Positions 8,327 to 63,140 of a stretch of 64,000 nucleotides of DNA are shown here, piece by piece. Location of the stretch: NCBI RefSeq assembly GCF_964204865.1, contig NC_135250.1:22373395-22437394 (forward strand). The letters run 5' to 3'. Under the pieces are notes generated by a model that saw only the letters and a list, made by a program, of their open reading frames with translations, ran no database searches and was not told the origin of the DNA. This DNA comes from Styela clava. Its lineage: Eukaryota > Chordata > Ascidiacea > Stolidobranchia > Styelidae. Numbering within the stretch: the first letter of the stretch is position 1; every line of letters begins with the position of its first letter. A program made the translations under genes and the position numbers.

Positions 8327-8490
8327 TGTAAGAAATGTTTCCTCATTTTAATTATGGGCACTAGGCTGTGTTCCAGAAAAGTGTTTCGTAATATCTATTT
8401 TCGCAATCATGCCAGTTCCGCGATAATCATTCAATCTTATAAGCGTAGTACATTCGTTTTCAGCTAAATGGAGTGATTATTATCCAAAAT
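8327..8490 (+). repeat. Truncated left LTR of the BEL/Pao element
   Basis: Matches 10703-10870 almost base for base over its first ~140 bp, then the two diverge. The breakpoint near 8488-8520 marks the internal deletion. Confidence 0.75.
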
Positions 8491-8520
8491 TTGATTCTGA
8501 TTTGATTTGATTCTAATGAT

Positions 8521-10388
8521 TCTGATTGTTATTCATTTACATATGCTTTCCTTGATTATGGCTCGTCACGTTCATTTTGCACCACTGATCTTGCTAAGAG
8601 ATTAGGCCTTCAAGGTGAAACTGAGGAGTGTACTATTCACACTGCCAGTGGTTCAAAGCCTCACTCAGGAAAGAGAGTATCTCTCACTATTACTGGTATT
8701 AATGAGCCTAACGAAATATGTGTAAATAATATTTTAACTTTTGATGGTATTCCTGATTTACGTGACTCTATCCCACATCAGGAAGTAGTGGAACAGTATC
8801 CACACTTACATGGTTTATACTTCCCTGAAGTAAATGGCACTATTGAGGTGCTGATAGGTTCTGATGTATTGGGACAATTTCCCATCTCAGACACATGTGT
8901 TGGTGAACAAGGCTCACCAACTGCTTACCATACAATTTTAGGTTGGGCTCTAGCAGGTCCTGACAAAAATGCTCAAATTTCAAATTGTGTCGAGTCAATT
9001 TTTTGAAAGCAGGTTATAGTTCTGCAAATTCTATTGAAGAAAGTACTAATTTATCTATGTGTCATGTTTGTGGTCATGATTTTGTTGATTTATATGCTGA
9101 TCCATGTACTACAGAGTTTTCTGTCGATGACAAGAAAGCATTGAGCATTATGGCAGATACAATGAAAATGATAAACGGTAGGTATCAAATTGCCTTACCC
9201 TGGGTATCTGATAATGTAACCCTCCCTAATAATCGTTTTTTAGCAGAAAAAAGGCTAATGTATCTCAAGCGAAAATTCCAGAAAGACCCAGATCTTTTCC
9301 AAAAATACAAAGATAAAATACATGAATACATCCAGAATGGTTATGCAGAATACATACCCATACATGAATTGCCACACAGTAACAGAACATCATATTTACC
9401 ACATCACTATACTGGCCAAAAAGTTCGGGTAGTATTTGATTGTTCAGCCGAGTTTCAAGGCACTCGTTTGAATAACAACTTGTTATCAGGTCCTTTCAAT
9501 ACTAATACGTTGGTTGGTGTTCTTTTGTGTTTCCGACAGGAACCCGTTGCGGTAATTTGTGACATCCGTCAAATGTTTCATAGAATTCGGGTAAATCCAC
9601 CTGATTGTGATTCCATGCGATTTCTTTGGTGGCCCAATGATGATTTATCTCGAGACCCTGTTGAGCTAAAAATGTTGAGTCATATATTTGGTTGTAAGAG
9701 TTCTCCATCTGTTGCTACATTTGCGCTACGGAAGGTAGCTGATGATAATTTATCCAATGCTGACTCTGTCACTATTGAAACTGTTAATCGTAATTTTTTC
9801 GTGGATGATTGTTTGAAAAGTTTGCCTACTGCTGACCAAATCGTCAGTTTGATATCTCAACTACGTAAGCTATTAGATACATGTGGTTTTCATCATGCCA
9901 AGTTCATAAGCAATGACCAAGCTGTGTTAGATTCGATACCTGATGAAGATAAAGCCCCATCTATGGTAGATTTTGACATTCAAGGTGATTCCTCAAATAA
10001 GACACTCGTTGTGCATTGGCGCATCGATGCTGACAAATTTGTAATTCGTATAAATGTTGAGCCTCTTCCTCTAACACGGAGAGGTATTTTGTCAATGGTA
10101 AGTCAAGTATTTGACCCATTAGGATTTGTCCAACCATTTATTTTGCCCGCAAAACTTATTCTTCGCGAGTTGTGCGATGAAGGTTATTCCTGGGATGATA
10201 CCATTTCTGGCCCACCTAGAGAAAGTTGGGAAAATTGGATCGCTTCATTATCCAACTTAAATAATTTGTCTATTCCTCGTTGTTCCAAGCCAGCTGACTT
10301 CACACCCACTGAGGTACAGTTGCATTTGTTCTGTGACGCTAGCAGAGTTGGTTATGGTTGTTCGAGTTATTTGCGTATGATTGATTGA
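8521..10388 (+). pseudogene. BEL/Pao pol remnant: A17 protease, reverse transcriptase, start of RNase H
   Basis: The first part (8521-9006) resembles the Pao-type retropepsin region, with the downstream motif ILGWALAGP. The expected D-S/T-G triad reads D-Y-G (about 8554-8562). The frame then breaks by one base in a T-rich run at about 8998-9006. The longer open part (8985-10388) carries BEL/Pao reverse transcriptase hallmarks: VRVVFDCSA, VICDIRQMF (palm Asp), the F-V-D-D catalytic box at about 9798-9809, then LTRRGILSMVSQVFDPLGF. The start of RNase H (HLFCDASRVGYG) is cut by the stop at 10386-10388. Integrase is missing. Frameshift, altered protease triad and truncation mean it is dead. Confidence 0.88.
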
Positions 10389-10702: not shown

Positions 10703-11338
10703 TGTAAGAAATGTTTCCTCATTTTAATTATGGGCACTAGGCTGTGTTCCAGAAAAGTGTTTCGTAATATCTATTTTCGCAATCATGCCAGTTCCGCGAT
10801 AATCATTCAATCTTATAAGCGTAGTACATTCGTATTCAGCTAAATGGAGTGATTATTATCCAAAATTTGATACTAATGATTAATTCCATGTATTATTCCC
10901 ATGTTTAATACATGAGGAGTCCCAAATAGATATCTTATTGAGCCAACTTGGCTTTATATTCTGACCAATAATCTGGCATCTGTAAATTCTCCCGCACGCC
11001 GCTCTCTTCTTTCTGAGTTTTTAGTGAGCGCACCTCTGTTTCTTAATAAGCTCCGGAATTTGTCAATTTGTAAGCCGTATTTTTCATGTTTGTTTTATTT
11101 ATTTAGCTAATATTTGGAGTGATGATCATAAATTAGATTAAATTGTGTGTAATTACTGAAATAAACTGACTCATCGATGTTCATTACTACTGCGATAATG
11201 CAATAAAGTCAAAGCAACAAATGTTGGATGAACTATTTGGGATCGGGCTCTTCAAGTATTTCTGGTGTTACTCGCACATTGGATCACACGATATCACTCC
11301 ACATCATAGTTAGGTGATAGCACCGTTTATTACCTACA
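10703..11338 (+). repeat. Right LTR of the BEL/Pao element
   Basis: Begins TGTAAG, ends CTACA, contains an AATAAA box near 11160 and is followed by GAAGT, the same five bases that precede the left end. Only its first ~165 bp have a partner in the left LTR, so the right boundary rests on TG...CA and the duplication. Confidence 0.7.
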
Positions 11339-26059: not shown

Positions 26060-26290
26060 GTTACACAGTACGGCCGATCTCCGACCTGACTTTTCTAATT
26101 TTACAGAAGCAATGGACTCGCTACTTTACAAATTAGAAAACATAAGAAAATCCCATTCATAATTCTAAGGGATTTGAATATCAACCTAATAGCTGAAGAT
26201 AATTTGACAACTCGGTACACTTCGGTACATGGTACATGCTTCTGTTTCACCTGGCCATTCTCACCATAAAGCGTCCAACAAGAGTAACTT
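26060..26290 (+). pseudogene. LINE endonuclease, 5' half of the element split by the satellite
   Basis: Frames on the plus strand read DFSNFTEAMDSLLYKLEN (about 26089-26142), then after a frameshift IPFIILRDLNINLIAEDN (about 26148-26201). The latter is the GDFN-type active-site strand of an APE-like endonuclease, with Arg in place of the usual Gly. After further frame changes PTRVTSTSHTLIEHIYTN runs into the first satellite unit. The order matches jockey/CR1-type endonucleases up to the HIYTN strand. Confidence 0.75.
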
Positions 26291-29200
26291 CCACTTCGCA
26301 TACTTTAATTGAACACATTTACACGAATGAATGCAACTGATCGTTGGTCACGATCTTATATTATATTACATGACATATCATATCACTTTAAACTTTCACT
26401 TCGCATACTTTAATTGATCACATTTACACAAATGCAACTGATCGTTGTTCACGATCTTATAATATATTACATGACATATCATATCACTTTAAACTTGCAC
26501 TTCGCATACTTTAATTGATCACATATACACAAATGCAACTGATCGTTGTTCACGATCTTATAATATATTACATGACATATCATATCACTTTAAACTTTCA
26601 CTTCGCATACTTTAATTGATCACATTTACACAAATGCAACTGATCGTTGTTCACGATCTTATAATATATTACATGACATATCATATCACTTTAAACTTCC
26701 ACTTCGCATACTGTAATTGATCACATTTACACAAATGCAACTGATCGTTGTTCACGATCTTATAATATATTACATGACATATCATATCACTTTAAACTTT
26801 CACTTCGCATACTTCAATTGATCACATTTACACAAATGCAACTGATCGTTGTTCACGATCTTATAATATATTACAAGACATATCATATCACTTTAAACTT
26901 TCACTTCGCATACTTCAATTGATCACATTTACACAAATGCACGATCTTATATTATATTACATGACATATCATATCACTTTAAACTTCCACTTCGCATACT
27001 TTAATTGATCACATTTACACAAATGCACGATCTTATATTATATTACATGACATATCATATCACTTTAAACTTTCACTTCGCATACTTTAATTGATCACAT
27101 TTACACAAATGCACGATCTTATATTATATTACATGACATATCATATCACTTTAAACTTTCACTTCGCATACTTTAATTGATCACATTTACACAAATGCAC
27201 GATCTTATATTATATTACATGACATATCATATCACTTTAAACTTCCACTTCGCATACTTTAATTGATCACATTTACACAAATGCAACTTATCGTTGTTCA
27301 CGATCTTATAATATATTACATGACATATCAGATCACTTTAAACTTTCACTTCGCATACTTTAATTGATCACATTTACACAAATGCAACTGATCGTTGTTC
27401 ACGATCTTATAATATATTACATGACATAGCATATCACTTTAAACTTGCACTTCGCATACTTTAATTGATCACATTTACACAAATGCAACTTATCGTTGTT
27501 CACGATCTTATAATATATTACATGACATAGCATATCACTTTAAACTTGCACTTCGCATACTTTAATTGATCACATTTACACAAATGCAACTGATCGTTGT
27601 TCACGATCTTATAATATATTACATGACATAGCATATCACTTTAAACTTTCACTTCGCATACTTTAATTGATCACATTTACACAAATGCAACTGATCGTTG
27701 TTCACGATCTTATAATATATTACATGACATATCATATCACTTTAAACTTTCACTTCGCATACTTTAATTGATCACATTTACACAAATGCAACTGATCGTT
27801 GTTCACGATCTTATAATATATTACATGACATATCATATCACTTTAAACTTTCACTTCGCATACTTTAATTGATCACATTTACACAAATGCAACTGATCGT
27901 TGTTCACGATCGTATAATATATTACATGACATATCATATCACTTTGAACTTTCACTTCGCATACTTTCTTGATCACATTTACACAAATGCAACTGATCGT
28001 TGTTCACGATCTTATATTATATTACATGACATATCATATCACTTTGAACTTTCACTTCGCATACTTTAATTGATCACATTTACACAAATGCAACTTATCG
28101 TTGTTCACGATCTTATAATATATTACATGACATATCATATCACTTTGAACTTTCACTTCGCATACTTTAATTGATCACATTTACACAAATGCAACTGATC
28201 GTTGTTCATGATCTTATATTATATTACATGACATATCATATCAATTTGAACTTTCACTTCGCATACTTTGATTGATCATATTTACACAAATGCAACTGAT
28301 CGTTGTTCACGATCTTATATTATATTACATGACATATCATATCACTTTAAACTTTCCCTTCGCATACTTCAATTGATCACATTTACACAAATGCAATTGA
28401 TCGTTGTTCACAATCTTATATTATATTACATGACATATCATATCACTTTAAACTTCCACTTCGCATACTTTAATTGATCACATTTACACAAATGCAACTT
28501 ATCGTTGTTCACGATCTTATAATATATAATAAATGACATATCATATCACTTTGAACTTTCACTTCGCATACTTGAATTGATCACATTTACACAAATGCAA
28601 CTGATCGTTGTTCACGATCTTATAATATATTACATGACATATCATATCACTTTAAACTTTCACTTCGCATACTTTAATTGATCACATTTACACAAATGCA
28701 ACTGATCGTTGTTCACGATCTTATATTATATTACATGACATATCATATCACTTTAAACTTTCACTTCGCATACTTTAATTGATCACATTTACACAAATGC
28801 AACTGATCGTTGTTCACGATCTTATATTATATTACATGACATATCATATCACTTTATCTTTCACTTCGCATACTTTAATTGATCACATTTACACAAATGC
28901 AACTGATCGTTGTTCACGATCTTATATTATATTACATGACATATCATATCACTTTAAACTTCCACTTCGCATACTTTAATTGATCACATTTACACAAATG
29001 TAACTGATCGTTGTTCACGATCTTATAATATATTACATGACATATCATATCACTTTAAACTTTCACTTCGCATACTTTAGTTGATCACATTTACACAAAT
29101 GCAACTGATCGTTGTTCACGATCTTATATTATATTACATGACATATCATATCACTTTAAACTTTCACTTCGCATACTTTAATTGATCACATTTACACAAA

Positions 29201-32200
29201 TGCAACTGATCGTTGTTCACGATCTTATATTATATTACATGACATATCATATCACTTTAGACTTTCACTTCGCATACTTTAATTGATCACATTTACACAA
29301 ATGCAACTGATCGTTGTTCACGATCTTATATTATATTACATGACATATCATATCACTTTAAACTCCCACTTCGCATACTTTAATTGATCACATTTACACA
29401 AATGCAACTGATCGTTGTTCACGATCTTATAATATATTACATGACATATCATATCACTTTAAACTTTCACTTCGCATACTTTAGTTGATCACATTTACAC
29501 AAATGCAACTGATCGTTGTTCACGATCTTATATTATATTACATGACATATCATATCACTTTAAACTTTCACTTCGCATACTTTAACTGATCACATTTACA
29601 CAAATGCAACTGATCGTTGTTCACGATCTTATATTATATTACATGACATATCATATCACTTTGAACTTTCACTTCGCATACTTTAATTGATCACATTTAC
29701 ACAAATGCAACTGATCGTTGTTCACGATCTTATATTATATTACATGACATATCATATCACTTTAAACTTTCACTTCGCATACTTTAATTGATCACATTTA
29801 CACAAATGCAACTGATCGTTGTTCACGATCTTATATTATATTACATATCATATCACTTTAAACTTTCACTTCGCATACTTTAATTGATCACATTTACACA
29901 AATGCAACTGATCGTTGTTCACGATCTTATATTATATTACATGACATATCATATCACTTTAAACTTTCACTTCGCATACTTTAATTGATCACATTTACAC
30001 AAATGCAACTGATCGTTGTTCACGATCTTATATTATATTACATGACATATCATATCACTTTAGACTTTCACTTCGCATACTTTAATTGATCACATTTACA
30101 CAAATGCAACTGATCGTTGTTCACGATCTTATATTATAGTACATGACATATCATATCACTTTAAACTTTCACTTCGCATACTTTAATTGATCACATTTAC
30201 ACAAATGCAACTGATCGTTGTTCACGATCTTATATTATATTACATGACATATCATATCACTTTAAACTTTCACTTCGCATACTTTAATTGATCACATTTA
30301 CACAAATGCAACTGATCGTTGTTCACGATCTTATATTATATTACATGACATATCATATCACTTTAAACTTTCACTTCGCATACTTTAATTCATCACATTT
30401 ACACAAATGCAACTGATCGTTGTTCACGATCTTATATTATATTACATGACATATCATATCACTTTAAACTTTCACTTCGCATACTTTAATTGATCACATT
30501 TACACAAATGCAACTGATCGTTGTTCACGATCTTATATTATATTACATGACATATCATATCACTTTAAACTTTCACTTCGCATACTTTAATTGATCACAT
30601 TTACACAAATGCAACTGATCGTTGTTCACGATCTTATATTATATTACATGACATATCATATCACTTTAAACTTTCACTTCGCATACTTTAATTGATCACA
30701 TTTACACAAATGCAACTGATCGTTGTTCACGATCTTATATTATATTACATGACATATCAGATCACTTTAAACTTTCACTTCGCATACTTTAATTGATCAC
30801 ATTTACACAAATGCAACTGATCGTTGTTCACGATCTTATATTATATTACATGACATATCATATCACTTTAAACTTTCACTTCGCATACTTTAATTGATCA
30901 CATTTACACAAATGCAACTGATCGTTGTTCACGATCTTATATTATATTACATGACATATCATATCACTTTAGACTTTCACTTCGCATACTTTAATTGATC
31001 ACATTTACACAAATGCAACTGATCGTTGTTCACGATCTTATATTTATATTACATGACATATCATATAACTTTAAACTTTCACTTCGCATACTTTAATTGA
31101 TCACATTTACACAAATGCAACTGACCGTTGTTCACGATCTTATATTATATTACATGATATATCATATCACTTTAAACTTTCACTTCGCATACTTTAATTG
31201 ATCACATTTACACAAATGCAACTGATCGTTGTTCACGATCTTATATTATATTACATGACATATCATATCACTTTAGACTTTCACTTCGCATACTTTAATT
31301 CATCACATTTACACAAATGCAACTGATCGTTGTTCACGATCTTATATTATATTACATGACATATCATATCACTTTAAACTTCCACTTCGCATACTTTAAT
31401 TGATCACATTTACAAAAATGCAACAGATCGTTGTTCACGATCTTATAATATATTACATGACATATCATATCACTTTAAACTTTCACTTCGCATACTTTAA
31501 TTGATCACATTTACACAAATGCAACTGATCGTTGTTCACGATCTTATATTATATTACATGACATATCATATCACTTTAAACTTTCACTTCGCATACTTTA
31601 ATTGATCACATTTACACAAATGCAACTGATCGTTGTTCACGATCTTATATTATATTACATGACATATCATATCACTTTAAACTTTCACTTCGCATACTTT
31701 AATTGATCACATTTACACAAATGCAACTGATCGTTGTTCACGATCTTATATTATATTACATGACATATCAGATCACTTTAAACTTTCACTTCGCATACTT
31801 TAATTGATCACATTTACACAAATGCAACTGATCGTTGTTCACGATCTTATATTATATTACATGACATATCATATCACTTTAAACTTTCACTTCGCATACT
31901 TTAAGTTTAATTGATCACCTTTACACAAATGCAACTGATCGTTGTTCACGATCTTATAATATATTACATGACATATCATATCACTTTAAACTTTCGCTTC
32001 GCATACTTTAATTGATCACATTTACACAAATGCAACTGATCGTTGTTCCCGATCTTATAATATATTACATGACATATCATATCACTTTAAACTTTCACTT
32101 CGCATACTTTAATTGATCACATTTACACAAATGCAACTGATCGTTGTTCACTATCTTATATTATATTACATGACATATCATATCACTTTAAACTTTCACT

Positions 32201-34372
32201 TCGCATACTTTAATTGATCACATTTACACAAATGCAACTGATCGTTGTTCACGATCTAATATTATATTACATGACATATCATATCACTTTAAACTTTCAC
32301 TTCGCATACTTTAATTGATCACATTTACACAAATGCAACTGATCGTTGTTCACGATCTTATATTATATTACATGACATATCATATCACTTTAAACTTTCA
32401 CTTCGCATACTTTAATTGATCATATTTACACAAATGCAACTGATCGTTATTCACGATCTTATATTATATTACATGACATATCATATCACTTTAAACTTCC
32501 ACTTCGCATACTTTAATTGATCACATTTACACAAATGCAACTGATCGTTGTTCACGATCTTATAATATATTACATGACATATCATATCACTTTAGACTTT
32601 CACTTCGCATACTTTAATTGATCACATTTACACAAATGCAACTGATCGTTGTTCACGATCTTATATTATATTACATGACATATCATATCACTTTAAACTT
32701 TCACTTCGCATACTTTAATTGATCACATTTACACAAATGCAACTGATCGTTGTTCACGATCTTATATTATATTACATGACATATCATATCACTTTAAACT
32801 TTCACTTCGCATACTTTAATTGATCACATTTACACAAATGCAACTGATCGTTGTTCACGATCTTATATTATATTACATGACATATCATATCACTTTAGAC
32901 TTTCACTTCGCATACTTTAATTCATCACATTTACACGAATGCAACTGATCGTTGTTCACGATCTTATATTATATTACATGACATATCATATCACTTTAAA
33001 CTTCCACTTCGCATACTTTAATTGATCACATTTACAAAAATGCAACAGATCGTTGTTCACGATCTTATAATATATTACATGACATATCATATCACTTTAA
33101 ACTTTCACTTCGCATACTTTAATTGATCACATTTACACAAATGCAACTGATCGTTGTTCACGATCTTATATTATATTACATGACATATCATATCACTTTA
33201 AACTTTCACTTCGCATACTTTAATTGATCACATTTACACAAATGCAACTGATCTTTGTTCACGATCTTATATTATATTACATGACATATCATATCACTTT
33301 AAACTTTCACTTCGCATACTTTAATTGATCACATTTACACAAATGCAACTGATCGTTGTTCACGATCTTATATTATATTACATGACATATCAGATCACTT
33401 TAAACTTTCACTTCGCATACTTTAATTGATCACATTTACACAAATGCAACTGATCGTTGTTCACGATCTTATATTATATTACATGACATATCATATCACT
33501 TTAAACTTTCCCTTCGCTTACTTTAAGTTTAATTGATCACCTTTACACAAATGCAACTGATCGTTGTTCACGATCTTATAATATATTACATGACATATCA
33601 TATCACTTTAAACTTTCGCTTCGCATACTTTAATTGATCACATTTACACAAATGCAACTGATCGTTGTTCCCGATCTTATAATATATTACATGACATATC
33701 ATATCACTTTAAACTTTCACTTCGCATACTTTAATTGATCACATTTACACAAATGCAACTGATCGTTGTTCACTATCTTATATTATATTACATGACATAT
33801 CATATCACTTTAAACTTTCACTTCGCATACTTTAATTGATCACATTTACACAAATGCAACTGATCGTTGTTCACGATCTAATATTATATTACATGACATA
33901 TCATATCACTTTAAACTTTCACTTCGCATACTTTAATTGATCACATTTACACAAATGCAACTGATCGTTGTTCACGATCTTATATTATATTACATGACAT
34001 ATCATATCACTTTAAACTTTCACTTCGCATACTTTAATTGATCACATTTACACAAATGCAACTGATCGTTGTTCACGATCTTATATTATATTACATGACA
34101 TATCATATCACTTTAAACTTCCACTTCGCATACTTTAATTGATCACATTTACACAAATGCAACTGATCGTTGTTCACGATCTTATATTATATTACATGAC
34201 ATATCATATCACTTTAAACTTTCACTTCGCATACTTTAATTGATCACATTTACACAAATGCAACTGATCGTTGTTCACGATCTTATATTATATTACATGA
34301 CATATCATATCACTTTGAACTTCCACTTCGCATACTTTAATTGATCACATTTACACAAATGCAACTGATCGT
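26291..34372 (+). repeat. 101-bp tandem satellite derived from LINE endonuclease, about 80 copies
   Basis: The unit repeats at 101-bp spacing (for example 30481, 30582, 30683) for about 8.1 kb. Each unit contains CTTCGCATACTTTAATTGAT, CACATTTACACAAATGCAAC, the hairpin-forming GATCGTTGTTCACGATC and ACATGACATATCATATCAC. Translated in the right frame it gives HTLIDHIYTN followed by a diverged ILHDISYHF, i.e. the stretch of a LINE endonuclease ending in the catalytic S-D-H region. Unique LINE endonuclease sequence abuts both edges. Differences between units are mostly single bases. Early units (26938-27235) include about 86-bp variants. Because 101 is not a multiple of three, no long frame persists, so it is not a coding array. 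Confidence 0.97.
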
Positions 34373-34413
34373 TGTTCATTTTCTCATATTAAATTATATG
34401 ACATATCAGATCA
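31170..34413 (+). repeat. 1,622-bp higher-order duplication inside the satellite
   Basis: Private variants recur in the same order 1,622 bp apart. ACAAAAATGCAACAGATCG is at 31412 and 33034, and the six-base insertion giving CTTTAAGTTTAATTGATCAC is at about 31902 and 33523. TTCGCTTCGCATAC, TGTTCCCGATC, CACTATCTTA and GATCTAATATT follow in both. Sixteen units of 101 plus the 6-bp insertion equals 1,622. Variants before 31170 lack partners. Confidence 0.88.
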
Positions 34414-34915
34414 CTTTCCTGTTATGTAATCTAGATTCTAGTGCACCTAAATGCAAATTCAAAACTCGCATGAGACGCAAAATGTCCACTTTGAACACAG
34501 AAATATTTAGATACGATGCCTAATTAAAATATATTCAATGCATTTGTATTGACACAACAGTAAACTGAAAACTTCAATGAAGTATTTGGTATTTTCTTAT
34601 CTACCATAAAGGACCTAATTTATACCCATGCTCCTATGGTCTCATGATCGCGTAAGAAAACTAAACTGCTATCAAAGCCTTGGACAACAGAGGGTCTTCA
34701 TAAATCCATCAACATGGTTCATGGTTCTCCAAGTCAACGTGCATTCTACAAAAAATATCATACCACTTTAGTTAACTTCTTAAAAATAGGAAAAATGGGA
34801 ATTTTAATCACCAGAAGGCCAACAAAAATATTTAAGTTATCAAACTTACAAACGAGAATATCTGTCGGAGACCGAAGACTTATCGATCGAAACTGCGGTT
34901 TCGATTTATGACTCT
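34373..34915 (+). pseudogene. LINE endonuclease/linker, 3' half of the split element
   Basis: Immediately after the last satellite unit the frame reads LYDISDHFPV (about 34396-34425), the intact S-D-H-F-P endonuclease end. Further on come a basic linker, KPWTTEGLHKSINMVHG (34675-34725) and RAFYKKYHTTLVNFLK. The latter match the segment between endonuclease and reverse transcriptase in the same LINE group (compare PWPTKGL in the copy at 20.6-23.4 kb). Reverse transcriptase is missing; the element ends near 34915. Confidence 0.78.
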
Positions 34916-35142
34916 ATGGTGACACCGCGTGTCTCATCACTAATTAATTAATAACTCGCTAATCTCGCTAATTATACGACATAATTCATCCAAAATCAAT
35001 AGGCTTCTGGTCCGAGATATGATGAATGCACATGCAAAATTTGGAGTAGATTCAACCTCGCCTTCAGCTAACAAACAGACATACAGATAGACAAATACCT
35101 ATCAACATACTTACCGATCTTAAGATCGATAAGTAATAGTGA
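34916..35142. other. Short spacer with CAGACA-type repeats
   Basis: Contains ACAAACAGACATACAGATAG and the palindrome CGATCTTAAGATCG. It may be a retroelement tail. No gene. Confidence 0.35.
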
Positions 35143-36172
35143 CTTTTTCATTTAGGTAAGAAATACTTTGTCAAGCTTGATGATTAAAAAATGGGGGTCG
35201 TGCGTTTCTCATTTTGAAGTTCAATTCGATATAATACAAGAGTGCAATGCCCAAATATTTGGTCGCGAAAGTCAAAACGAAATAGTACGGGTATCTGATC
35301 TTTCACAGTACCGGTGGTACGGAACACTGAAGTAAAAATATATATCTGTGGCACGGAAAGGCGTCTGACCTTCGACTGACATTAGATTAGACAGTAACGA
35401 ACGCGAATGTGGAACCACTAGGTGCGCAATTTTGGAGCATCATAATATCCAAACGATATGTATGCCCATTTCATGTCCAACAGTAACATTCCATTGTTCA
35501 ATGTCGTATGTATACTGATATATTGATCAGTGATAATAAACAAATATAATATCACCAATTAATGAGTATTTGAGAATTCGGATCGACTAGAAAAATTGAT
35601 TTGATTTCTAAATCACGTGGTACTCCGGAATACCGGTAAGTCTGTATAAAAAGGGAAAAATGAATTAGGTGATTAAGATTAAAGACATGTTTCACGTCTA
35701 GTAATAGTATTAACTCCAAATTTTTCATTTATTTTCGGAATTATATTTTTCGAATACTTAAGCCTCGGTCCCATTCTCAATACTGCATTATTTTTGTTAT
35801 CTATCAGGTGAACGACAATTGGAATTTTGCCAGAATCAATCTGTCTCGTAACAGAATAGTGATGTCTATCTAATTTTTGATAAAAAAACTCTTGCAACCA
35901 CCAGCACTGTCATACTCTTGAACAACGAAAAACTCTTGGAGTTCACCAACTGTGGTTTCGTAAGATGAGAACGAACAGGCATCCATAATCGCTTGCAGTC
36001 CCAGTTTATACTTTAGAATAAGATTATTAAAATAGCACATAATACAAGTCATTGTGACGCACCAAAAATTAATATTTTTTATTATAAATTTGTTTGTATA
36101 TTTTGAAGCGTAAAAACTTATTTTATCATTTGTACGGGCTCTGTTAAAGACTAAGAAGGCACAGGAGTACAA
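35143..36172 (-). pseudogene. Inverted second copy of the scramblase exon, frameshifted
   Basis: The minus strand from about 36057 to 35143 matches the plus strand at about 717-1645, including the scramblase exon, its donor and the intronic family A repeat. The exon reads GLQAIMDACSFSSYETTVGE, then loses its frame where copy 1 has AAGAGAGG and this copy AAGAG (about 35880-35890). It recovers in another frame as HHYSVTRQIDSGKIPIV. No downstream scramblase exon is present. This copy keeps a few more N-terminal residues (LGLQAIM) than copy 1, which has an in-frame TAG just upstream. Confidence 0.85.
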
Positions 36173-45688: not shown

Positions 45689-48166
45689 TCAGTAGAAATC
45701 ATAGCATTCTCCACGAAGTATTTCCATTCTCATGCTCAAATGTCCGTACCAACGCTGTGGATAGAGTCGCACGTAGCGGCAAACCAGTGGATTGGGAAAT
45801 ATATTGGTGACTTTAGTATTTCGGTCATTATTTCCTTGAAATACCTGGTAAAGTACATTAAATACCACGTTAAATAAAGAATTGAATGTTCAAACCTACA
45901 ACAAAGTGTGCCTACCTTCTCTTGATCATTTTCCATGATAGTTTGGAAACAGTTTGTAGAATTTCCGCACTTGATTTTATACGCAGTCACCCATTGATCA
46001 TAACTTGCTGGTCTACCTTGTGTTACAACTCCGGAAACCGCATTAGGCATTCTTAAATCGATTTGAATCCAGTCTCCGATTTGAGCTAAAACAAAAAAGA
46101 TCAATCAAAAAATAAAATTTTGGTACTCCCGTAGTATGTGTACCAGGTTAGGGTTAGGCCATAATTATATTTCGATTTACCGTATTTAAGTTCTATTACG
46201 AGTTCGGGGACCGTTTGTATCAGCCAAGTAAATACACCCCCTGCCCATAATAATCAGTCCCTTTACACAACTTGATGTAAAGTAGGCAAACAAAATTGGT
46301 TACCTCCATACTGGTACACACAGTTCTGGAGCGCCGAAATTTAAACCCAGCGTTTGAAAGAAAAAAACATGATTCAACAATTAGTATAAACTGGTGCGAG
46401 ACTTTCTTCTACATCTCAAGTAATACTTTTATAAATGATCCGGAAAAAATATTGGTATATATTTTACCTAATATTTTTTATTATTTGACACGACGAGGAC
46501 CTATATATCGTTTCGTTACTATGTTGTTGATGATTTTAGTATTCATTTTGTTGTTGTGAAAAAAATCACTTTCATCTTTAACTACTGGACCACTTGGTAT
46601 GAAAGTTCAGTGGTTAGTGATTGTTGTTGTCGCACAAAAGCAGTTACTTTTATTTAGTTCCAAAATTCCTGTGGGCTCTATCGGATTCGAGTTCTAATTT
46701 GGATTTTTTGTATGATGACGCCATCAAAATTAAAAATTGCGTTTGTGGCGGTTCCGCGTTAGAAATCGTAGCAATCTGGTGGTCAGTCGGAGTCGCGAAA
46801 CACGGTGCCGGTACTGTAAAAGATTCTATACTCGTACTAAGGGCTACTTCGTTTTGGCCTCCGTGTTCCCTATATTTGGAGATCACTCGCTTCTATTATT
46901 AAAATGCTGCATTGACACCCACGGAGTGCATAACCTGGCGATATCAAGACATGGTAATAGCATCATTTTACTCAATAGATTGAAAAAACTCACGTTTCCG
47001 AGAAATCCATGCTCCATATGATTTTGGGTTTGATGCAGGCTGTTCATCTAATCTTCCATATTGTCCATGATGAAAACTTTCCCAATCGGAAGAGGTTGAG
47101 ATATCCGCATCCGCAATGTCTCTGGACTTCATGCCCATTGCGCAAAATTCGACTGTGGGAAACATTTGATGTATTACTCGATTATTAGACCATTTAGGAA
47201 TTTGTGTGATTTGGCCAGTAATTTGACTTCAATTATTTTGACTTCAAATGCTTTGATGATTTTTTTTTTTCAATTTGTGAAAAAATGGATTATTTCATTA
47301 GTGTTGTTTTTGGAATTTGTAAGTGGTCATCTCAAAATCATATTTATAGAGGATAGTCTATTCAAAATATTGAACTCAATTTTTATGGCTATTGTTCAAC
47401 TCAGTTTGCGAATTCCGGCAGCTATCTTCGTCTATAATGTTTTGCTCACGACTTGGCTTAGTCAATTTTATAAATATAATCCGCCGAAAATAGCCAGAAT
47501 TTATATAATACAATTCTTACGTTTCTTATTCGGTGTGAAGACTTTCTTCATCATGATAATTGTATCTGTAAAACAGGTTACATAGTTGCAATAGAAAAGA
47601 CTAATTCAAGTTTATCATTTTTAAAAACGTTTTTTTACAATAATCAGAAAAAATATGCGAAAATGGGTTTAATTATTTTTCGTTGCTCTGTTTTATTGTG
47701 CATATACTGTTCTATCTGTATCTCACTTCAACAAATGGCAATTCAGATAATGCAATTTTAGCAGATGTCTAATAAATACAGTTTATTATTATTTTAATAC
47801 TTAGAAAAACTCATTCCTATTTGGCAAATGCTTTTACTAACGTCAGATACATAGAAACAAAGTTACCAATTTTTCTTAATTTAAAAGTACGCCGAGGTGA
47901 ATTCAATTTTTACCTTCTAATTGTTTTACTCTTGCTTCAAGTGCTTCCGATGTCCCTGTTGCGCCAGTGTCACCTTTCGCACCTTTGTTTCCTTGAGAGC
48001 CAACTGGGCCTCTCTTGCCTGGCCTTCCTTGACATGTTGCCGTATTGCAAGAGTTTTGTTTGTCAGACATGAGAGCAGTGCAAAACTCAAAAACATTGGG
48101 TATGTCACAGGAGGCGAGCATACCCACTGAAGTGAGGGATAGTAACACAACCACGAACTTACCCAT
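45689..48166 (-). CDS. Secreted collagen-like/F5/8C (discoidin) protein, paralogue A
   Basis: Minus-strand exons 47914-48166, 46994-47152, 45916-46085 and 45689-45844 join in phase to 245 residues. In order there are a signal peptide (1 to about 19), a Cys-rich spacer (C20, C29, C40, C45) and eight Gly-X-Y triplets (47-71, GRPGKRGPVGSQGNKGAKGD). A short heptad region follows (EALEARVKQLE, 74-84), then one F5/8 type C domain from about 86 to the end. The domain shows EFCAMGMKSRDIADADIS, IGDWIQIDL, VSGVVTQGR, and the closing CRYVRLYPQRWYGHLSMRME. The layout suggests a secreted oligomer held by a collagen stem with a carbohydrate- or lipid-binding head, as in soluble recognition lectins; ligand unknown. 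Exon lengths equal those of paralogue B exactly. Introns hold dispersed repeats. Confidence 0.92.
46125..46285 (+). repeat. Dispersed repeat D with GGTTAGGGTTAGG core
   Basis: Contains GTACTCCCGTAGTATGTGTA, GGTTAGGGTTAGGCCATAAT and TTCTATTACGAGTTCGGGGA. The same order is found at 50745-50885 (in paralogue B) and, folded back on itself, at 55790-55935. It lies in an intron of paralogue A. Confidence 0.6.
46640..46910 (+). repeat. Dispersed repeat family A, copy in paralogue A intron
   Basis: Carries TTCCTGTGGGCTCTATCGG, GGCGGTTCCGCGTTAGAAAT and GTGCCGGTACTGTAAAAGAT in the family order. The equivalent intron of paralogue B has a copy at 51220-51450, so insertion predates the gene duplication. 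Confidence 0.65.
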
Positions 48167-50310: not shown

Positions 50311-52721
50311 TCAATAGAAATCGTAGCATTCTCCACGAAGTATTTCCATTCTCATGCTTAAATGTACATGCCAACGCTGTGGATAGAGTCGCACGTAGCG
50401 GCAAACCACTGGATTGGGAAATATATTTGTGACTTTAGTATTTCGGTCATTATTTCCTTGAAATACCTGGTAAAGTATATTAAATACAACGTTAAATACA
50501 AAATTAAATATTTAAACTTACAACAAAGTGTGCCTACCTTCTCTTGATTATTTTCCATGATGGTTTGGAAACTATTTGTAAAATTTCCGCACTTGATTTT
50601 ATACGAAGTCACCCATTGATCATAACTTGTTGGTCTACCTTGTGTTACAACTCCAGACACCGCTTTAGGCATTCCTAAATCGATTTGAATCCAATCTCCG
50701 ATTCGGGCTGGAACAAAAGAGTTCAATCAAAAACTAATATTTTAGTACTCCCGTAGTATGTCTAACAGGTTAGGGTTGGGCCATAGTTTTATTCCTATTT
50801 TCCATATTTTAGTTCTATTACGAGTTCGGGGACTGTTTGTGTTAGCCGAGTGAATATACCCCCTGTCCATAGATTTCAGTCCCTGTACACAACTTGATGT
50901 AAAGTAGGCAAACAAAATTAGTTACCTCCATACTGGTACACACACGCCTGGTGCGCCAAAATTTTAACCCAGCGTTTAAAAAACAAAAACATGATTTAAC
51001 AATTAGTATAAATTGGTGTGAGATTTTTTATTTTTTATTTTCGAATATAAGGACTGCTTCGCTTTGGTCCACGTGTCCATATATTTGAGCGTTGCTCTCT
51101 TGTGTTATTGTTTTTAGTAATCGTTTTCTTGTTGTAAAAATCGCTTTTTTCTTCAACTACTGAACCATTTGCTCTGAAATATCAGTGGTCAGTGAATGTT
51201 GTTGTTACTTTTATTCATTACCAAAATTCCTGTGGGCTCTATCGCTTTTCAATATGAATTTTTGTGTGATGACGCCATCGAAAAAAAACATTGCGTGTGT
51301 GTGCGGTTCCGCGTTCGCTATCGTGGCGATCTCGTGGTCAGTCGAAGTTGCGAAATTCAGTGCCGGTAGTGTAAAAAATTTGATACCCGTACTAGGCTAC
51401 TTCATTTTGGTTTTCGTGTCCCATATATTTGAGCATTGATCTCTTCTATTAAAAAAAACACTGCATCGATACCCATTTTGACGATATTAAGACAGGATAA
51501 TAACAGCATTTCACTCAGAAGATTGGAAACTTTAAAACTCACGTTTTCGAGAAATCCATGATCCATATGAAGTTGGGTTTGATGCAGGCTGTTCATCTAA
51601 TCTTCCATATTGTCCATGATGAAAACTTTCCCAATCGGAAGAGGTTGAAATATCTGCATCCGCAATGTCTCTGGACTTCATGCCCATTGCGCAAAATTCA
51701 ACTGTGGGGAACATTTGATGTATTACTCGATTATCAGATCATTTAGGAATTTGTATTAATACTCCGATTGTCAGTAATTTGATGTAATGAATTTTAGTTT
51801 TTAATTTCAAACATTTTTGCATCTCAACAAATTTTGCATCTCGAAAAAAAAATAAATGCTTTGATGAACTTGAGCTTTAAAAAAATCCGGAACATTTTAT
51901 TATAGGGTTGTTTACGGAACTTGTAAGTGGTTATCTCGAAAACATATTTATAGATGAAAATTTTTTCAAAATATTGACCTCGATTTTTATGGTTATCTTA
52001 AACCTATTTTCTAAATTCCGGCAGATATATTTGTCTATCACGTTTTGCTCACGATTTAGTATAGTCGTTTTTATAACATAGTTCACTGAAAATAGCTAGA
52101 ATTTATATATATATATATATATATATGAATTGTTACGTTTCTGATTCGGTGTGAAGACTTTCTTCATCATGGCAATTGTATCTGTAAAACAGATTACATA
52201 GTTGCAATAGAAAAGACTAATTCAAAAAATATGCAATAATGTGTTTAACTGTTTTTCGTTTTTTTTCATAAACCGGTTCAATTTGTGTTTTGTATCTCAC
52301 TTCTACAAATGGCAGTTCCGATAATGCAATTTTAACATGTGTCTAATAAATACAGTTTCTTATTATTTCAATAAATATTAAAAATTAGGTAAATTCTTTT
52401 ACTAAACACAGATTTATAGAAACGAAATTTATTTTCCTAATTCAAAAGTACACCAAGATAAATGCGACCTTCTAGTTGTTTTACTCTTGCTTCAAGTGCT
52501 ACCGATGTCCCTGTTGCGCCTGTGTCACCCTTCACACCTTTGTTTCCTTTGGGGCCAACTGGTCCTCTCTTGCCTGGCCTTCCTTGACATGTTGCCTTAC
52601 TGCAAGAGTTTTGTTTGTCGGACATGAGAGCAGTACAAAACTCGAAAACATTGGGTATGTCACAAGAAGCGAGCATACCCAATGAAGTGAGGGAAAGTAA
52701 TACAACCATGAACTTCGCCAT
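50311..52721 (-). CDS. Secreted collagen-like/F5/8C (discoidin) protein, paralogue B
   Basis: Minus-strand exons 52469-52721, 51543-51701, 50538-50707 and 50311-50466 have the same lengths (253, 159, 170 and 156 bases) as paralogue A and also give 245 residues. Signal peptide, Gly-X-Y stem (GRPGKRGPVGPKGNKGVKGD), heptad region and F5/8C domain are conserved. Differences are scattered, for example GMPKAVSGV for RMPNAVSGV and CGNFTNSFQ for CGNSTNCFQ, where one domain Cys becomes Ser. The first donor has changed from GTAAAA in A to GTCGCA here. If it is not used, translation reads on for a few residues to a stop at 52437 and the head domain is lost. The gene may thus be active, weakly spliced or newly silenced. 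Spacing to A is 4,555 bp, same orientation. Confidence 0.88.
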
Positions 52722-56803: not shown

Positions 56804-59800
56804 ATGAGAAGTGTGCGCAGTCTGCTTGATTCATTCCCGTTACGAGTTTTCAAAAATGTCGCCGAGTATTGTCTTGTAGTTGTTATATTGGTAGCAATTG
56901 GAGATATTCTTCGTTTATTCGGCATAAGTATCTTAAGTAGGTATGAATTATGTTGTTCTGTAAATCATCTAGCATTTGGCTAACTATATGATGACATTAC
57001 ATGAGAAAGGCCTTTCAACCCCAACTCATTGCCTATTAGCACTACTTCTTACAGAGTGTACACGAGTTAGTTCAACAAACAATTCAAGTACCTAAAGAGA
57101 ATTATGCCGTATCCAACTACTCGCCTGCAGCTAAACAAATTGTATTCAGAAATCAATCGTATCAAATATACCAAATACGATGTAAACTTGGTCAATAGTT
57201 TTGATTTTAAACATGGTTTGGCACAGATACAATTCATTAATCATTAAAAATTGACTTACATCGAAATAATGGTGGTAGCGCAAATCTCTCATAATAACCT
57301 ATGTCAGGGTGGTCCGAGGTTGTCTTTTATTGTCCAAACCAGTGGTTCCCAAACTTGGGTCCGCGAAAAAATCTGTAATATGGCTAAGAGCTTGATAATA
57401 CAAAAATCAAGTGCCTGAATTTGCAAAGACACATTTGTAGTCCTTTGCTGCTTTGCAATCACCGCTGGAGACACTGATTCTTAACTTTCTGTTTCGATCA
57501 CGCTGACCCATTGTGATGTCACAGAGCTATGAGCATGTGTTATCACAGAGAGAGTTCAATTCATGCCACCACAAGTGTACTAACTAAAGAGCTATATAGG
57601 TGACGCTGCCCTTCTGCACGTTTTCCAAATATCGAAACAGACTAGATGTCACACCTGTCATTGGAGTTGCGCTTCATATTCTTTTGATAGTTTCACTATA
57701 CAACGCATTGTTTTTTTGCTGTGATATTTTAATGTTCTGTTTTAGTGCACAAGGCCAGGAATCATTAAATACATTGCAAAGGTTGCGTCATGGATTTTTT
57801 TCGAAAAGTTTGGGAACAACTGGTTCGAACACATTAATAATTATTTGTCATTTATCAAGATAAAACATGCAAAAACTCAAACTCACGAAAACGTGCAAAA
57901 ATTGTACTATATCTACATTTAGTGTAAGATTTCAAACTCATTACGGAGAAAGTGCCATCAGGAAAATTAGACGTTTTAGAATTTAGATTGTCACCGACAC
58001 AACTTGCAGACATATTAAGCGAGCATTGTGATATTTTCCCTCCCACATCCAGTCAAAAATCTGTTTGAATTGGTCAGCTTTCCTTTCAAACTTATGTTTA
58101 CAAAATAACTTACAAATAACTGCAGATTGGACACCCGGCAGGAATAATATCGTTCGGCCATTGCATTATTATTTAGTTATCTAGCAAAGCCAACTTAGGC
58201 TGATAGATTCGATTTTTAGTTGTCTATGAAACCTATTTCGTTAGCATATATTCCCGACCAAAATAATAGAAAGCCAGTTAACAATTTAGACTAGTCAATC
58301 ACATTATTCAAATTATTTTTACTTCCTTCAATCCACATGTAGGGAAAACAGTCTATGAATGGTATCGATAAATTCCCTTTGTAATTTTAAACTTTTAAAA
58401 TTTCATGAACACCCTGTACTTCATATTCTACAGAGTTAATGTCTAGCAAGCATGGAATGGAACCAACGCTTGAAAATGTTCCTAAATTGTGAGTTATTGT
58501 TACGATAAGGGCTACCGGCATTTTTGACTTGTGCTCAGAAATTACTTCAACTAACATCATTGTCAATACGCAAGCTTTCTAATGTTGTAATTAATCTACT
58601 TCGATTTTAAATAGTTGCAACTAATTAATTATACAGCATTACATAAAACAAAAATTTGACAGTTTCTAATTAGAAGTCTTACGTCCCTACTCGCGTTGTT
58701 GGAATCATTGGCTCCTATTTATTCTAGACATATGCATTACTCTTGTCTCATACTTTGCCAAATATGAGTGAAATTGTTGATTTCTAATTTTAACTCATTT
58801 TCATGATTGAGAAAAGTAATAAATCCATGCAACGCGTTGTGTGACCAACTTTGTTTTATGTTGTTCTATATTTCAGTACATTGGGATCACTTCGACATAT
58901 CGGAAAAAAATATTATCAAGATATTTTCAGAAGTGCGGTAATCGGACTTAAGGCACCAAATTCCACAGTTTATTATCAAAAAACCTTGAAAAAACGCAGG
59001 TCAGATATATTTAAGAATTTTTTTTAAAAATTAATTGCATATTCGGTATGGCTGCTATTTATACATAAATGAACGACTGTAAAACTAATAGACATCTCAT
59101 GTTAAAATCGTATGGCCATCACATCACCCAATTGGGAGAATTCCGTACCGGAAAGATTTCGTTTCTTCAAAAAAAGTTTTTTTTTATATATATTTGGTTA
59201 TATATCAACGGTTGGATTTAAACACTCATTTTGTTTAGTAGCGTAATTTCGTTTTTTTTTTATAGTTTCGAAGGTTTATCTCGTTGATGTAAGCTTATTC
59301 TGTAAAAACAAATTTTCTTTGATGTAGCCTATATTTGTTTTAGAATTCTAGATTTCAGTAACCCAGGACGCCCTCTTGTTCTCGTATTTGGATCATGTAC
59401 CTGACCCCCATTTCTGAAAGGGGTTGAGCGTCTCCCTACTCTTATGGAGGAATATTGTTCAAAAGTTGATTTTGTTGTGATATACACTCAAGAAGCACAT
59501 GCGACGGACAGTCATTGGCATTTAAAAGACATGAAGTAAGGGAAGTAAGAAACAGCGTTAGGTCCAAGTCATTAAACTCCAAGTGGAGCCACATACCATA
59601 TAGGTCTTCAAAAAATTCCGATATCCATGAATTGATAATTTCGACTCCGAATCCGATGGTTCCAAAAAGCATTACGTTTTGTAATTTTTCTCAGGCACCA
59701 CATTTTCCTTCATAAAAGTCTTCATGATCGTCAGTCTGCCGCAGAAATTCTTAAAGACTACTTTTCGTGCCCTTTGGTGTTGGATGGAATAGAAAATGAA

Positions 59801-59947
59801 GCAACGAAGCATTATGGTACGGATCCGGATCGAATGGCAATCATCTACAACGGTTGCTTAGAATATATCAGTGCAAAAGGACCTTTTGGGTTTAAAGTAG
59901 AAGAAATGCTAATTGCTTTAAATCACATATTACAACGAAGTGAATAA
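56804..59947 (+). CDS. Iodothyronine deiodinase, selenoprotein with in-frame TGA
   Basis: Exons 56804-56940, 58877-58999, 59344-59535 and 59695-59947 join in phase to 234 residues if TGA 59402-59404 is read as selenocysteine (residue 107). Deiodinases are membrane-anchored thioredoxin-fold enzymes that remove iodine from thyroid hormones. An N-terminal membrane helix lies at about 24-40 (CLVVVILVAIGDILRLFG), then a linker (GLKAPNSTVYYQ). The active-site strand reads NPGRPLVLVFGSCT, Sec, PPF, precisely where the family has its Sec. VDFVVIYTQEAHATDSHW (the E-A-H motif) follows, then LHKSLHDRQSAAEIL, LVLDGIENEATKHYG, IIYNGCLEYI and GPFGFKVEE. The start at 56804 is the first ATG after a stop in that frame. 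A TTG- or exon-extended start is possible, since CTATTCGCAG just upstream could be an acceptor. Intron 1 carries a hAT element. SECIS-like structures lie at 60255 and 60481. Confidence 0.92.
57340..57822. mobile_element. Non-autonomous hAT element in deiodinase intron 1
   Basis: Left end CAGTGGTTCCCAAACTTGGG and right end AAGTTTGGGAACAACTG are inverted repeats with one mismatch over about 17 bp. Flanks GTCCAAAC (57332-57339) and GTTCGAAC (57823-57830) agree at six of eight positions, an aged duplication. No coding sequence. Confidence 0.8.
59402..59404 (+). other. Selenocysteine codon (TGA) of the deiodinase
   Basis: In frame within exon 3, between FGSCT and PPFLK. It is the only in-frame stop before 59945, and it occupies the family's Sec position. 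Confidence 0.9.
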
Positions 59948-60249
59948 GAATTTTTATACCACTCAAGTTATCAGTATGGCCTTCAATGTTGCAGTACCAA
60001 TGGGGCATTCGCTATTATAATGCTCAATACCATGTTTGTATATATAGCAAGTAAGCTACCCCCTTATTTTCGAACTGCCAGTAAAAGATATTTCAATAGG
60101 TATATCATCTAGAAATCTTTGAAAGCCAGCAACGTTAAACAAGGCTGTCCTATTGTCAAAATCATCATTTTTTTTGTTTTGTTCCAAAGTTATTTGTATT
60201 TTTGATTTTTTTGCTATATTATAAAAAATGTTATTTAAAATATCAAACA

Positions 60250-60318
60250 TGTAAAGAATTCATGAAGGTACATAAGAAACATGCGGAAAGCAACCTTTGG
60301 TACCAGATGGTTCATTTC
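60250..60318 (+). promoter_or_regulatory. SECIS-like element 1
   Basis: Core ATGA at 60262-60265 is followed after 11 bases by AAA, then a small stem TGC-GGAAA-GCA. The 3' strand CTTTGGTACC follows and then AGAT at 60305-60308. Helix II pairs GGTAC with GTACC and AAG with CTT, with two internal mismatches. GAATT/GGTTC closes helix I. Tandem G-A pairing of ATGA with AGAT plus an A-rich internal bulge is the form-2 SECIS pattern. It lies 315 bp after the deiodinase stop. Confidence 0.82.
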
Positions 60319-60475
60319 TATGCATGCTAACTGTTTTTATAACATTTCCAAGTACATATACACAACTCTCCTAATGTGCATATTAATAAAACCATGTTTT
60401 TTTTCGTTCCAAAGTTATTTGTATTTTTGATTTCTTTGCTACATTATGAAAAATGTTATTTAAAATATCAAACAT

Positions 60476-60541
60476 GTAAAGAATTTATGAAGGTACATAA
60501 GAAAATTGCGGTAAGCAACCTTTAGTACCAGATGGTTTATT
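60476..60541 (+). promoter_or_regulatory. SECIS-like element 2
   Basis: Core ATGA is at 60487-60490, AAAA bulge after 11 bases, minihelix TTGC-GGTAA-GCAA, helix II GGTAC/GTACC and AAG/CTT, and 3' AGAT at 60530-60533. Substitutions relative to element 1 sit mainly in loops or extend the minihelix (TTGC/GCAA is four pairs here), so folding is preserved. Confidence 0.8.
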
Positions 60542-60619
60542 TCTATGCATGCTAACTGTTTTTATAACATTTTCAAGTACAAATATATACGCAATTCTCC
60601 TAATGTGCATATTAATAAA

Positions 60620-62142
60620 ATTACCAAACAAGAGAGCAATACTCAACTATATGCTGCCGGTGCTTATGATATTTGTTCACATTTCTTGAAGAAAATTGCT
60701 GACATAATCTCGCCAGTTATTGCGCATTTTTTTAATACGTCTATAAGGATAGGTATATTTCCATCTGCACTGAAACTTGCCAGAGTTATTCCATTGTACA
60801 AATCCGGCGATAAAACTAACCCATCTAATTACCGACCTATATCTGTCTTATCATGTTTGGCAATTGTCTTCGAAAAACTTTTGTACTGTAGATTAACTGA
60901 ATTTTTCGAAAAAAAACAAACTAATTAATAAATTCCAATTCGGATTTCAGACAAATCATTCGACAAGTCATGCAATTATTGATCTAATTAAATATATTTA
61001 TGACAAATATGAAAAGGGAGATCATGTTTGCTGTGCTTTCTTAGATTTGAAAAAAGCTTTCGATACCGTAAGTCATAACATACTCTTACACAAACTTCAT
61101 CATTACGGTGTGCGAGGTTGTGCTAATTCTCTTTTAAAAGATTACCTACATGGCCGATTCCAATATGTGGAAGTCGAAAATAATCGTTCGGAGGTTCTTC
61201 CTATTGACTCCGGTGTGATCCAAGGCTCTTCACTTGGCCCTTTATTATTCCTCGTATTTATAAACGACATCTCACGATGTTCGAATTTGTTGACAAAATT
61301 GTTGGCGGATGATACTGGTCTCCTAGGTAGTTCCAAATCATCGACTAATCTTCAAAATTGCTTCAACCTAGAATTAAAAAAAGGTCTATGATTGGATGCT
61401 CTGTAATAAGCTAACTATCAATATAGAAAAATCTAAAGTAGTCCACATACGTCCTAGTCCTAGCAACGATCAGAAAACACCTCTGATAATCAAAATGAAT
61501 GAAACTGAACTTGAATCTGTTCCCTCGTATAAATATCTTGGATTGAACATTGATCACCGTTTACGGTGGGATCTGCATGTCAAAGAGTTACATAAAAAAC
61601 TTTCACGCTCAGTAGGTATACTAAGCAAACTTCAACACTATACAGACCGGAGTACACTCAAAGTGGTATATTATTCACTTTTCCAGACTTACATTCAATA
61701 TGCAATTGCTGCCTGGGGATCTGCCACTGAAGCGACCTTAAGAGCTATAAACGTTTTACAGAATAGAGCCATTAAAATCCTATATGGACCGTCCACTCGT
61801 GTTAACATGAATACCATGTACCATAAAACTGGCGTACTCAAACTTGATGATATCTACAAACTAGAAATATTTAAATTAATGCATCAATACCATATTTGTT
61901 GCCTTCCACAGGCATTTTCTAAATACTTTGTAAAGCAGAGTAGTGTTCACGATCACAATACTAGATCATCTGCAATGTCATTCTACTTTGTACCACGCCA
62001 AACCTACTCAAAGACACAAAAATCACTCAAATACACAGGTGCGATTATGTGGAATGCTGTACCTGGTGAAATGCGAAGCATGTCTTATCCTCTGTTTAAA
62101 ATGAAGATGAAAAAATTTTTTTGGTCCAAGTATCTCGAATGA
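60620..62142 (+). pseudogene. 5'-truncated LINE (jockey/CR1-like) reverse transcriptase, two frameshifts
   Basis: Plus-strand landmarks in order are KIADIISPVIAHFFNTSIR (about 60691), IPLYKSGDKTNPSNYRPISV (about 60790) and FLDLKKAFDTVSHN (about 61038). Next come IQGSSLGPLLFLVFINDIS (about 61218), the catalytic box L-A-D-D (about 61304) and YKYLGLNIDHRLRWDLHVKE (about 61528). RSVGILSKLQHYTD and VHDHNTRSSAMSFYFVPRQT follow, and the stop is at 62142. One extra base in an A-run at about 60910 and another shift near 61380 break the frame. It resembles the minus-strand copy at 20.6-23.4 kb. It begins almost directly after the second SECIS/polyadenylation block, so it may have inserted there. Confidence 0.9.
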
Positions 62143-63140
62143 TGACAATAGTTAATTTATATTCCTTGAGGTCTTTCCAAACCCTGAAATCAATTCAACA
62201 TAATATGAGCTAATAACTCGGTCCATAATATTAGTATGTACTTCTGATGGTTCATTTTCCAACAAATTTTTACCAATATTTGTGTTTATTCATTTTATTT
62301 TACAACATGCCAATCTTATTGCCAGATTTACCGAAATATACTCGTTTCATTTGATTCCCACTCCCCTTAACATGAACTAGATATGGGTCAACTCATTGTT
62401 GTAGTTCAGTAGCTATGAACTTTGTATTATATATATACAGATATATTGCAAATCTCAGCATTTGTCATGTTAAAAGTAACTTTTTTTATTACACACTTGA
62501 AATGACACTTCAACACCTAGTCACATTGTTTCTTTTTTGTTATATTGTGCAGTCCAGTGCGTCTGTACAGACGATAGAATATTATTCATCACGTTACCGG
62601 TACCGTACGGTATTTCATATTCGAGTACCGGTACCGGTACGGTACTGTGCGCATGTTAAACATCTGCTTCAATAGATTTATGTCATTTATACCTGTTCTT
62701 TCTTCATTGTCTCCCGTTGTCCAGTCCACTACAACTAGATGATTATCATAATTTGGTTGTGATAACTGAGCCACTACAAATTCCCGTATATTTCCCCATA
62801 ACACGCTTTTATTCAATGCCTGTAAGCTACGAAACGGAGAATACCCCTAATTACTATCTGATGTATTGCGTGGCTCTCAGATACACCCTAGTGTCATGAC
62901 GATTTCTCGTTAAACCGTATTAGTATATATTTACGGCTAAACTATACTATGCTATATTGATCTACTAAAATTATATGTTAATTAGATAGTTGAATCTTGG
63001 GTGCCGCTGCTAGATAACCAACTTTGGTTCCCCACGGTTTCCCTTCCCCAGTAAAATTATGTTTTTGAATTTTTGCTTATTTTTTGTATCATTCATTATT
63101 TTACTGGTTGGAAAAAATAAACTTGACTATTGACTATGCG
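62143..63140 (+). repeat. LINE 3' region with inserted repeat
   Basis: The end AAAATAAACTTGACTATTGA CTATG at about 63112-63137 is typical of the 3' tail of such LINEs. A CCGGTACCGGTAC-rich patch at 62595-62645, related to family A, interrupts the region. No gene was seen. Confidence 0.5.

Follow-up and report, generated by a model that had tools for sequence, protein, structure and literature searches.

A tandem array of 101-bp units expanded in situ within a decayed LINE copy of Styela clava

Background

How satellites originate is commonly debated on arrays that have lost both their source and their edges. One stretch of the Styela clava genome raises the question of whether such an origin can be read at the source itself. 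The window analysed here comprises 64,000 nucleotides (RefSeq assembly GCF_964204865.1, contig NC_135250.1, positions 22,373,395 to 22,437,394, forward strand), and its coordinates are used throughout. An initial annotation, made from the sequence alone, had described an array of about 80 copies of a 101-bp unit as the expansion of an internal piece of one LINE, and had taken it for a satellite captured at birth. We asked where the array came from, whether it is confined to this locus, how it grew and how old it is.

Results

The array and its parent element

Tandem Repeats Finder (TRF) reported a single array at 26286-34417 with a period of 101, 80.0 copies and 92% matches, in line with the initial estimate; splitting by a fixed anchor gave 81 units over 26286-34418 (Table 1). 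Besides the 86-bp units, units 57 and 73 are 107 bp long with an identical 6-bp insertion, and six further units depart from 101 bp (96 to 105 bp). The array contains 48 distinct unit sequences, 22 of the 81 units are identical to the consensus, and interior units differ from one another at a mean of 2.8 positions per pair.

Table 1. Coordinates of the array, its parts and the neighbouring repeats in the window
Feature	Position	Strand	Remarks
Left remnant of parent LINE, ORF2 endonuclease	26077..26285	+	Frameshifted; 20 of 196 aligned bases substituted relative to the majority of six sisters
Whole array	26286..34418	+	81 units of 86-107 bp, most of them 101 bp; source about ORF2 residues 278-310
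Unit 1, left end, 105 bp	26286..26390	+	4-bp insertion; LINE state C6; derived states at sites 62, 63, 92 and 101
Four consecutive 86-bp units (units 7-10)	26896..27239	+	Shared 15-bp deletion, unit sites 45-59
Block duplication of about 16 units, source	31076..32675	+	Second copy begins 1622 bp further downstream, with 10 of 1600 bases mismatched; 99.4% identical
Block of about 16 units, second copy	32698..34297	+	Match to 31076-32675
Unit 81, right end	34318..34418	+	LINE states at sites 6, 62, 92 and 101; reads TLIDHIYTNATDRCSFSHIKLYDISDHFPVM into the right flank
Right remnant of parent LINE	34419..34794	+	Reaches about ORF2 residue 445; 53 of 364 aligned bases substituted (34419-34786)
Dispersed repeat, about 290 bp, abundant, not LINE	34850..35138	+	Directly after the LINE remnant
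Second LINE copy of family A, 5'-truncated	60653..62431	+	96% to sister copy L022 over 1783 bases; does not include the unit

The genome searched was the window's own assembly (376.6 Mb, 379 contigs). The unit matched it at 89 places: the 81 units of the array, single copies in seven LINEs on other contigs, hereafter the sisters, and one match at 76% that lies in a more distant LINE. Identity of the unit to the sisters was 92-94% for five and 87% for two copies on C18, and reached 94% over 100 bp in L021-L023. Alignment placed the unit once, and colinear with both flanks of the array, in six of the seven sisters, as expected for an internal piece of one element with parent flanks preserved on both sides; in L024, the right flank and part of the left aligned. 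The sisters are near-identical, with 0 to 1.4% pairwise differences in the unit region among six of them, L024 being left out as its left part could not be aligned.

The sister L022 has uninterrupted open frames for ORF1 (341 codons) and ORF2 (1051 codons). Pfam placed Exo_endo_phos on ORF2 residues 103-309 (1.3e-13) and RVT_1 on residues 611-855 (3e-33); PHD (4.3e-4) and Exo_endo_phos_2 (9e-4) both fell below Pfam's cutoffs. Translations of the units mostly correspond to ORF2 residues 278-310 or 278-312, and the unit thus encodes the final portion of the endonuclease domain, which bears out the proposed endonuclease assignment. Against human L1 ORF2p (8sxt), the IDH and SDH of the unit, as counted along the alignment, fall opposite D205 and S228-D229-H230, in a part where confidence is low; we take these L1 residues to be catalytic. 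The parent LINE is presumably of a CR1/L2-like group with an APE-type endonuclease. A comparison of the window's reverse transcriptase with viral contigs gave no confirmed relative.

Pfam and PDB searches of the short decayed flanks, singly or joined by hand, returned no endonuclease match, and the assignment was therefore taken from the ORF2 of the sisters. In translation, the left edge of the array carries PTRVTSTSHTLIEHIYTN and the right edge LYDISDHFPVM followed, in another frame, by KPWTTEGLHKSIN, so that the edge peptides quoted initially are indeed present. Site 92 is T in 76 of the 81 units, so that SDH has a Tyr codon in place of Asp. The interior consensus reads DISYHF, not DISDHF. 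Identity of the flanks to the sister copies is 84-86% on the left (six copies, L024 matching only partly there) and 80-81% on the right (all seven). Homology to the LINE spans about 26077 to about 34794, slightly inside the extent of 26060-34915 first given, and a different repeat of about 290 bp starts at about 34850. No LINE match was found beyond this repeat, up to position 36000. The repeat itself had 3039 first-look candidates in the genome, of which 40 were scored, and three copies lie close together at C14:16753 kb.

The two C18 copies, at 2218-2325 and 7343-7450 of L026, are 5,125 bp apart, are identical over 661 columns and share an 8-bp duplication, TTAATTGA, inside the unit region. 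At the same place L025 has 2 extra T, and units 57 and 73 of the array have their 6-bp insertion; the site is a possible hot spot of micro-duplication.

Expansion at a single locus

A pattern spanning the unit-to-unit junction was searched assembly-wide with up to 3 mismatches. It gave 79 matches, every one in the array, and its backwards control gave 1. The array has 80 junctions, and the unmatched one has lost 1 base where unit 26 ends.

With a 901-base LINE query, at least 22 copies covering the unit were listed besides the array locus: seven at 98-100%, including the query L022 itself, and 15 at 65-75%. Two partially covering copies (C10:3175418 and C10:4430960) are excluded from the 22. 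None of these 22 listed copies is expanded at the unit site, the greatest excess over the length of the query stretch being no more than 8 bases; those at C9:1498358 and C19:9092810 are shorter than it, by 75 and 43 bases. Since the unit occurs once in the sisters, the junction occurs only here and these 22 copies are unexpanded, the array is an in-situ expansion at one locus, neither an insertion nor a genome-wide satellite. Both kinds of counter-evidence proposed at the outset were sought, and neither told against the origin in a LINE: the sisters do not lack the unit, carrying it once at 87-94%, and the junction search, with all 79 matches in this array, revealed no second array.

That an already existing satellite, or a copy thereof, was inserted by chance into or next to LINE fragments is extremely improbable. 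No point in its support was found. Against it stands the LINE sequence of the unit itself, which six sisters hold colinear with the two flanks and all seven with the right one, and the junction is seen nowhere else in the assembly.

Local growth of the array

Interior units at lag 1 and at lag 16 were more alike than in 2000 of 2000 permutations (40 lags tested); the strongest of the other 38 lags were lag 11 (30/2000) and lag 2 (68/2000). The signal at lag 16 arises because a block of about 16 units was duplicated (Table 1). The run of 86-bp units is a local sub-expansion of one variant. Similarity of neighbours, the 86-bp run and the block duplication together point to unequal exchange or slippage, acting locally, as the probable process of growth.

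Growth by rolling-circle copying of an excised circle, followed by reinsertion, would explain the 22 consensus-identical units as the product of a burst. We regard it as decidedly improbable in place of unequal exchange, as the array lies at its source, its variants are locally clustered (at lag 1, in the 86-bp run and in the block), and the assembly search detected the junction nowhere but here. A 101-bp circle would also be very small.

The array is known from one assembly, and its copy number could be an assembly error, since long near-identical arrays are hard to assemble. Nevertheless, a true locus with far fewer units is very improbable. The 48 distinct units, the private variants and the structured block duplication are, in our judgement, unlike simple assembler looping, and the contigs from which copies were retrieved, 18.7-31.3 Mb long, suggest a long-read assembly.

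Unit 81 retains LINE states lost from the interior consensus, which supports an in-situ origin from the LINE, although the signal is exclusive to this unit only for C101. State C6 is found in 12 units, unit 1 among them; unit 20 shares T62, and units 11, 45, 55 and 71 share G92. Unit 81 further carries five changes missing from the interior consensus (sites 63, 64, 68, 75 and 80), four of them in no other unit and the fifth, T63, also in units 59 and 75.

The founding duplication and its age

At the founding junction the LINE sequence ...ATCACTTT is followed by one extra A and then by AACTT(C/T)CAC..., the start of the unit; that is, ...CACTTT is joined to AACTTCCAC... with one added base. The first duplication would have occurred at a junction without useful homology, by end-joining, repair or slippage. 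A microhomology-mediated event using the shared ACTT was discarded as a mechanism, because the unit retains both ACTT copies.

Changes were polarised with subfamily B, which is about 74% identical, using the majority of L028-L033 (L035 and L036 were not used). The window copy shares 147 sites with family A against B and 18 with B against A, and is therefore an old member of the A lineage. Measured against the majority of six sisters, unit 81 has 7 substitutions in 101 bases and the interior consensus 6 in 100, site 101 being omitted as the junction. The interior consensus differs less from the sisters than the combined flanks do (73/560; Fisher p 0.045; last unit p 0.097). This excess similarity is not predicted by equal neutral ageing and may reflect chance or the small sample.

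T48C is the sole derived change of the unit common to the interior and the last unit, and C6T, T62C, C63G and G92T arose with or after the duplication, as did the base at site 101, which lies at the junction. Two other readings were discarded: G79A is not a change preceding the duplication, as subfamily B has A, which is ancestral; and the sister comparison rejected T80 of unit 81 as an ancestral state, while G92 did prove ancestral.

Because five changes of unit 81 are missing from the interior consensus, whereas interior units differ at 2.8 positions per pair, the founding duplication was probably not recent, and the fresh birth envisaged initially needs revision to that extent. One of the six derived changes of unit 81 is shared; on these few sites, the first duplication probably fell in the early or middle part of the parent copy's existence, with 0.4-64% of the lineage (95% interval) preceding it. 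The array interior appears to have turned over more recently than that.

Duplication during insertion, with the reverse transcriptase slipping or switching template along the LINE RNA, would have supplied the seed from the start. With T48C as the only shared derived change, the duplication would be early, even at insertion. We consider this origin unlikely: the same T48C suggests some time before the duplication, unless it was present in the source RNA beforehand, and no dimer of the unit was seen in the 22 other listed copies covering the site.

A candidate hairpin

The adjacent changes T62C and C63G remove the imperfection of an inverted repeat (sites 50-55/61-66), whose 6-bp stem then pairs perfectly around a loop of 5 bases; another stem is extended by G92T. 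The predicted single-stranded DNA folding energy moves from -5.3 kcal/mol (z -0.22) in the sister unit to -8.5 kcal/mol (z -2.82). An energy of -8.5 was reached by 930 of 20000 random five-substitution sets, and by 827 of 20000 when two substitutions were adjacent; of the 243 combinations of bases at the sites concerned, 15 folded with as low an energy.

It is conceivable, if quite unlikely, that a perfect hairpin in one founding copy triggered the take-off of the array. T62C and C63G would then resemble the template-switch correction of a quasi-palindrome, and unit 81, which does not have them, would be the copy that never multiplied. If true, the gain of a hairpin would turn a harmless duplication into a satellite. 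Against such a trigger, the 86-bp units lost one arm yet multiplied. Given this, the random sets and the fact that the idea was formed after the data were seen, the hairpin is a weak hint only.

Other features of the window

Exons of an iodothyronine deiodinase lie at 59350-59944 (+), with PF00837 at 4.4e-14 on 59639-59944 and an in-frame TGA between GSCT and PPF, as expected for selenocysteine. The truncated LINE copy of Table 1 is just downstream of them and adjoins a two-copy, 225-bp tandem repeat (60172-60620). Direct repeats of 175 bp with 98% identity (8327-8501 and 10703-10877) enclose protease- and reverse transcriptase-like open frames (8506-10385, +), and the whole resembles a BEL/Pao-type LTR element. 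Two similar open frames, 45739-46104 (-) and 50361-50726 (-), about 4.6 kb apart, are apparently a local duplication; an F5/8 type C (discoidin) domain was found by Pfam in the first, on which the search was run. A MITE-like sequence at 423-570 has 49-nt inverted repeat arms, 88% complementary, around a 50-nt spacer. Rfam gave no family at the gathering threshold in the whole window.

Discussion

We consider it highly probable that the array arose as follows. A family A LINE encoding endonuclease and reverse transcriptase would have inserted here, and was then truncated and decayed. The 101-bp stretch encoding the end of the endonuclease was presumably duplicated in tandem, and one of the two copies, derived at sites 62, 63 and 92, would have multiplied by repeated local exchange, that is, by unequal crossing-over or replication slippage between 101-bp repeats. 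Growth would have included tandem copying of single variants and of the block of about 16 units, and the outermost right unit seems largely to have escaped homogenisation. We infer the order as founding duplication, end-unit escape, local copying and block duplication.

Satellites related to LINEs are already in print. Passages of PMC9659126 describe PROsat of Phodopus and Pvc 20 of Phoca, both related to LINE-1 ORF2, and the chicken HinfI/SCR1 repeat, related to CR1 3'UTR and partial ORF2. Like the present array, these are tandem units related to a LINE ORF2 fragment; for them those passages give sequence similarity, whereas the present array still occupies its source, and its two LINE flanks, unexpanded sisters and junction are known. 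The same passages describe minisatellites within or beside transposable elements, which are likewise tandem arrays from a transposable element copy; with a 101-bp unit, 8.1 kb of length and a higher-order duplication of about 16 units, the array is compared with them by kind and not by size. According to parts of PMC12628747, satellites arise from segments of transposable elements, untranslated regions being named for LINEs, and part of PMC8392823 describes a CR1 fragment that is not tandem.

As described in parts of PMC7004042, Lathyrus satellites grew from subrepeats of Ogre elements, where short arrays inside retroelements sometimes grow, a likeness to the present case. There the start was existing 3'UTR subrepeats of dispersed LTR elements, whereas here it was coding sequence in a single non-LTR copy; unlike the Ogre 3'UTR, the unit site has no subrepeats in the 22 other listed LINE copies. 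With LINE-ORF2-related satellites already published, the kind of event is known, and the present example is unusually traceable. An equal in-situ case was not found in a non-exhaustive literature search, from which we make no claim of absence from print.

The term satellite, as first applied, fits in part. The array is tandem and is homogenised with higher-order structure, a feature of satellite DNA seen in its lag-1 and lag-16 signals and its block. Classical satellites, however, occupy many loci or a large block at high copy number, frequently within heterochromatin. As this array is confined to one locus of 81 units and 8.1 kb, nascent satellite or minisatellite is the more exact label.

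Conclusions

At this locus the parent element, both breakpoints, the end units, unexpanded sisters and a subfamily that polarises the changes all survive in one genome. The order running from founding duplication through end-unit escape and local copying to block duplication is thus directly testable in other individuals and in close species.
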